A program made the translations under genes and the position numbers. From NCBI GenBank assembly GCA_001303705.1, contig LJUI01000062.1:1-13616 (forward strand): a DNA stretch of 13,616 bases, read 5' to 3'. Positions 1,771 to 5,844 of this stretch are shown here, piece after piece. The notes beneath the pieces were generated by a model, which searched no databases, had not been told where the DNA came from, and was given only the letters and a program-made list of their open reading frames with translations. This stretch comes from a candidate division TA06 bacterium SM23_40. GTDB lineage: Bacteria; LJUI01; SM1-40. How positions within the stretch are numbered: position 1 is the first letter of the stretch; every line of letters begins with the position of its first letter.

Positions 1771-5844
<4,074 letters not shown>

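Follow-up and report, generated by a model that had tools for sequence, protein, structure and literature searches.

The RNA polymerase β′ subunit (RpoC) encoded in the window, by which we mean the whole 13,616-nt stretch analysed here (candidate division TA06 bacterium SM23_40; GCA_001303705.1, contig LJUI01000062.1, positions 1–13,616, forward strand), carries an Ala at the position of E. coli β′ Asn458. We consider it probable (about 0.7) that the polymerase is an ordinary housekeeping enzyme and that N458A, a recurrent change from Asn to a small residue, is tolerated in it at a mild kinetic cost.

The rpoC gene lies in a cluster on the minus strand of the window composed of nusG, rplK, rplA, rplJ, rplL, rpoB, rpoC, rpsL, rpsG and the start of fusA, and its product shares 54.5% identity with E. 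coli RpoC over 1104 columns (K-12 reference). Upstream of nusG, a tRNA-Trp gene (anticodon CCA) is found at 13037–13113, also on the minus strand. The relevant features are as follows, the coordinates of the trigger loop and of the R425 motif being computed from residue numbers:

1771–5844, minus strand: rpoC, β′ subunit, 1357 aa, GTG start, single copy, aligned to E. coli RpoC
3097–3123, minus strand: canonical trigger loop TQLTLRTFH, residues 908–916, Q909 corresponding to E. coli Q929
4459–4482, minus strand: metal-A motif FAADFDGD, canonical form (F/Y)NADFDGD
4477–4479, minus strand: GCC codon, Ala456, at the E. coli β′ Asn458 column, from reverse complement and alignment
4558–4578, minus strand: intact R425 motif RAPTLHR, RpoC residues 423–429, residue 423 corresponding to E. 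coli R425
5928–9704, minus strand: rpoB, β subunit, 1258 aa, every active-site residue checked being canonical

The reverse complement of 4459–4482 reads TTT GCC GCC GAC TTC GAT GGA GAC (F A A D F D G D), confirming the initial annotation, in which the motif was AADFDGD and not NADFDGD; that the gene is on the minus strand had not been mentioned there. Alignment to K-12 β′ placed the GCC codon (4479–4477) at the N458 column, also as annotated. All 29 readable domain-wide relatives have Asn at this column and, as had been pointed out, AAY and GCC are two base changes apart. The Ala is therefore beyond chance.

The remainder of the active site is intact. The β′ alignment bore out the earlier statement that the R425 equivalent and the three metal-A aspartates of DFDGD are kept, and residues Q504, R731, K789, Q929, R933, T934, F935 and H936 are canonical as well. 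At M932 the window has Leu, the residue also carried by most of the aligned Asn458 sequences. Where a β′ column reaches 95% conservation or more across the Asn458 rows, the window departs from it only at I61V, I105V, N458A and L800M. All catalytic residues checked in β (R540, E565, R678, E813, D814, K1065, K1073, R1106, H1237 and K1242) are canonical, and no compensation was seen in this subunit. No compensating partner for N458A was found among the β′ and β residues checked. Residue 445, which changes from Lys to Asn or Ser in many Gly458 rows, was rejected as such a partner: Patescibacteria with Asn458 vary there too, and Armatimonadota with Gly458 retain the Lys. As far as can be judged from the sequence, there is no sign of decay or second-site rescue in the window polymerase, since the other residues checked in both subunits are ordinary. 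In a separate feature, RpoC residues ~920–1099 form an insertion of ~175–180 aa in the trigger loop, comparable to E. coli SI3 in place and size; the clostridial RpoC compared lack it.

Several lines of evidence identify the gene as a housekeeping rpoC: it is co-linear with rpoB in the nusG-rplKAJL-rpoBC-rpsLG-fusA order, and the residues expected of such an enzyme (R425, Q929, H936, K789 and R731, together with β R678, K1065, K1073, R1106 and H1237) are all present. The exception is the ‘universally conserved’ Asn458, replaced by Ala in the window. Since Asn458 is not universal (see below), it is no defining feature of housekeeping RpoC and Ala is no bar to membership. A single rpoC match was obtained in the genome, an assembly of 2.88 Mb in 189 contigs with 89.8% completeness; within this 89.8% there was no further Asn-type rpoC of the kind expected alongside a second, specialised RpoC paralogue.

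We scanned 84,980 species genomes with the pattern (codon not beginning with A)-GCN-DFDGDQM, which is blind to diverged motifs and to the codons AGY (Ser), ACN (Thr) and AAR (Lys). The 88 stretches obtained were translated as G (67), A (8), Q (5), H (4), Y (2) and R (1). Some hits had no RpoC context, being frame breaks or diverged polymerases from cyanobacteria and elsewhere, and were dropped. The RpoC long enough for a tree then numbered 63 with Gly, 8 with Ala, 4 with His and 1 with Tyr, and one short Gly sequence was kept besides. The initial annotation had stated that many unrelated bacteria with Ala here and normal selectivity would refute it; as far as occurrence goes, and counting any non-Asn residue, such bacteria largely exist, with about 77 genuine non-Asn458 RpoC besides that of the window, in Chloroflexota, Armatimonadota, several Patescibacteria, Aerophobota, Bacillota including Clostridia, and single cases elsewhere. 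Their share, ~0.1% of species, is a lower bound because of the blind spots of the pattern. In samples taken without the codon restriction, only Asn and Gly were observed at 458, with Gly in 6 of 101 Armatimonadota matches and in 1 of 105 Patescibacteria matches, the latter being the centre genome itself. Position 458 is thus Asn in the great majority of species, which implies real selection for Asn in most lineages.

A tree of 225 RpoC sequences was built without site 458 and without the trigger loop, from a sample enriched for exceptions. Asn/non-Asn parsimony gave 26 changes, at least 20 of them forced by supported branches, and the Ala state by itself accounted for at least 8 changes; given the enriched sample, and since changes may be gains or losses, these figures count events and not origins. 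Within clades the residue is inherited vertically, as illustrated by Gly in all 16 related Chloroflexota. Gly and Ala also exchange inside clades, in keeping with one base change from GGN to GCN; L043 and L099, placed among Gly clostridia, are examples. These results show that loss of Asn458 in bacteria has happened independently at least about 20 times, counted as changes that may be gains or losses, and that the residue is dispensable rather than universal. The published description of N458 as universally conserved (PMC7862312) is therefore contradicted by recurrent natural exceptions.

Closer to the window, the nearest genomes form a three-member class in which one carries Ala (G044) and two carry Asn (G315 and G321), and the other sampled members of the larger surrounding phylum have Asn. 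The suggestion that Ala could be a lineage-wide trait thus holds for one of the three nearest genomes and fails for the other two. RpoC trees joined the window and G044 with support of 98 (FastTree) and 47 (IQ-TREE). A concatenation of ten proteins placed them apart, without rejecting their sisterhood (AU p 0.122). Accordingly, the Ala of the window and of G044 (locus L071) goes back either to a single common event or to two separate ones near the base of the phylum.

What could the loss of this side chain entail? The β′ residues R425, N458 and Q929 can contact the ribose 2′-OH. In E. coli, N458S reduces selectivity for NTP over dNTP 4-fold at binding and gives a 1.5-fold gain at incorporation; for R425K both steps lose selectivity, 17- and 25-fold, respectively, making R425 the main determinant (PMC7862312). 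The yeast Rpb1 mutant N479S is viable and slow in vitro, with the most severe elongation defect of the set tested, and is lethal when combined with H1085Q or H1085Y (PMC3325174). In a sub-2 Å Pol II structure, Asn479 reaches the 2′-OH through water (PMC7619134). The kinetic data found in the literature for position 458 concern the Ser substitution; none were found for Ala or Gly.

By analogy with these mutants, in an otherwise ordinary housekeeping enzyme that has lost the Asn458 side chain, recognition of the NTP ribose would rest on the contacts that are left: a direct one from R425 to the 2′-OH and one from the trigger-loop Q929 to the 2′/3′-OH. The Asn458 share would be only a part of the 2′-OH contact, which water mediates in yeast Pol II. 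The Ala enzyme would then bind NTP and elongate somewhat more poorly at low NTP, and its discrimination against dNTPs would be at most few-fold lower, so that strong compensation would not be needed. Given the severity of yeast N479S in vitro, elongation could be slowed more than mildly. That the loss recurs, with Gly, Ala or His in place of Asn458, would reflect a position that matters without being indispensable. The contact of this Asn with the ribose, and a somewhat lower discrimination against dNTPs on its substitution, as given in the initial annotation, are supported by the published data (PMC7862312). The further expectation that Ala should change sugar selection appears possible, and the effect would be weak given the modest and opposed changes in N458S and an intact R425.

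Within the clostridial order of G061 and G055 the trigger loop varies. It reads MRTFH in 29 of 29 Asn458 genomes of this order, and, where readable, MKVFQ with Gly or Ala at 458 and MKNFA or MKNFS with His458. In L034, L099, L113, L066 and L076, loss of Asn458 thus coincides with loss of the catalytic trigger-loop His (H936Q, or H936A/S where 458 is His), a double change that would be akin to the lethal yeast N479S/H1085Q. Since the non-Asn genomes form one supported group in the RpoC tree, this may be a single remodelling event. A general coupling between position 458 and the trigger loop, although suggestive in this order, was rejected, as the link was not significant tree-wide (3–5 pairs for, 0–1 against; median p 0.25).

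Other unusual polymerases were observed. Paenibacillus sp. UNC451MF (L171, 11794–16248; G057) has a second, free-standing RpoC with His458, the trigger loop LRAWH and a long, charged, coiled-coil-like N-terminal extension, without rpoB alongside; an Asn458 rpoC is also present in the genome. A Bacillota MAG (L172, 588–4322; G046) has a second, diverged RpoC with Ala458 and the trigger loop GGPWVQLTMETSH, adjoining an ORF that is coiled-coil-like in sequence and has a hydrophobic stretch at its C terminus, and an Asn458 rpoC on another contig. Two Saccharibacteria (L037, L059) combine Gly458 with a remodelled trigger loop SLDSKH. In cyanobacteria (L046, L049, L087, L118; e.g. Rhizonema, Iningainema), the scan met a conserved ~1000-aa ORF that does not resemble RpoC and may be a diverged polymerase of the two-barrel type. 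A Desulfobacterales MAG (L096) and an uncultured bacterium (L031) hold diverged RNA-polymerase-like ORFs in which GADFDGD goes with an altered R425 region (LLNRPPSLL and AKRDPALHKL, respectively); these possibly stem from mobile elements or phages.

Other explanations of the window Ala have to be weighed. With an assembly of 189 contigs and 89.8% completeness one could suspect an assembly or sequencing artefact, which would require two wrong bases in an ORF that is intact; clade-wide non-Asn states in other lineages also speak against it, and since the independently recovered nearby genome G044 has Ala too, this is extremely unlikely. A takeover of the Asn contact by some other residue would agree with the clostridial order, in which the trigger loop is changed in every non-Asn458 genome where it can be read. 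The canonical trigger loop, bridge helix and β residues of the window, the distribution of residue 445 and the non-significant tree-wide link make such a takeover improbable here.

Some RNA polymerase inhibitors use the NTP pocket, and a natural inhibitor binding there might have selected the substitution as resistance. Two genomes with an extra, diverged non-Asn458 rpoC in addition to an Asn copy (L079 with Ala, L102 with His) show a pattern that self-resistance could give; these copies, with altered trigger loops and without adjacent rpoB, are unlike resistance duplicates, and the window genome has one rpoC copy, so that we give this explanation little credence. It also seems unlikely that the Ala enzyme is tuned to nucleotide pools or habitat, whether through weaker NTP binding, altered pausing or less strict sugar selection. 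The recurrent, clade-wide retention of Gly or Ala indicates a persistent state, odd if purely harmful, but the taxa concerned are very mixed and no other active-site change accompanies the Ala of the window. Somewhat less doubtful, though still tentative, is the wider idea that Asn458 stands outside the obligatory active site and that ribose recognition was repeatedly rebuilt without it, in some clostridia with H936Q/A/S, which would give these lineages a differently wired NTP selection.

A tolerated change in a housekeeping enzyme remains our preferred reading. Taken together, some 80 natural exceptions, with supported branches requiring no fewer than 20 independent changes, indicate that Asn458, which figures in models of NTP versus dNTP discrimination by RNA polymerase, is replaceable. 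Conclusions drawn at this site from E. coli and yeast mutants may not extend to all bacteria, and the natural Ala, Gly and His enzymes are ready material for testing its role. Our literature search, with most subscription journals outside its scope, found no report of a bacterial housekeeping RNA polymerase without Asn458, nor the string GADFDGD; the window RpoC apparently belongs to a recurrent natural variant that is so far unreported.

Compared with known systems, the window RpoC resembles that of E. coli in operon position, metal-binding aspartates, R425, Q929, trigger loop and bridge helix, and differs by Ala at 458. It shares the altered position, mostly in a housekeeping enzyme, with the Gly, Ala or His458 RpoC of Chloroflexota, Armatimonadota, Patescibacteria, Aerophobota and some Clostridia, which mostly have Gly and in some cases altered trigger loops, unlike the window. 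The motif has been called ‘nearly invariant’, with its loss noted in plant Pol IV/V (PMC2605557). The largest subunits of these enzymes likewise keep a DFDGD or ADFDGD core and lack the preceding Asn; they are specialised and strongly diverged with many active-site changes, whereas the window polymerase is otherwise canonical. The laboratory mutants E. coli N458S and yeast Rpb1 N479S (PMC7862312, PMC3325174) lost the same Asn and left an active enzyme and a viable yeast, respectively; in contrast to them, the window change is natural, stable in a wild lineage, and to Ala instead of Ser.
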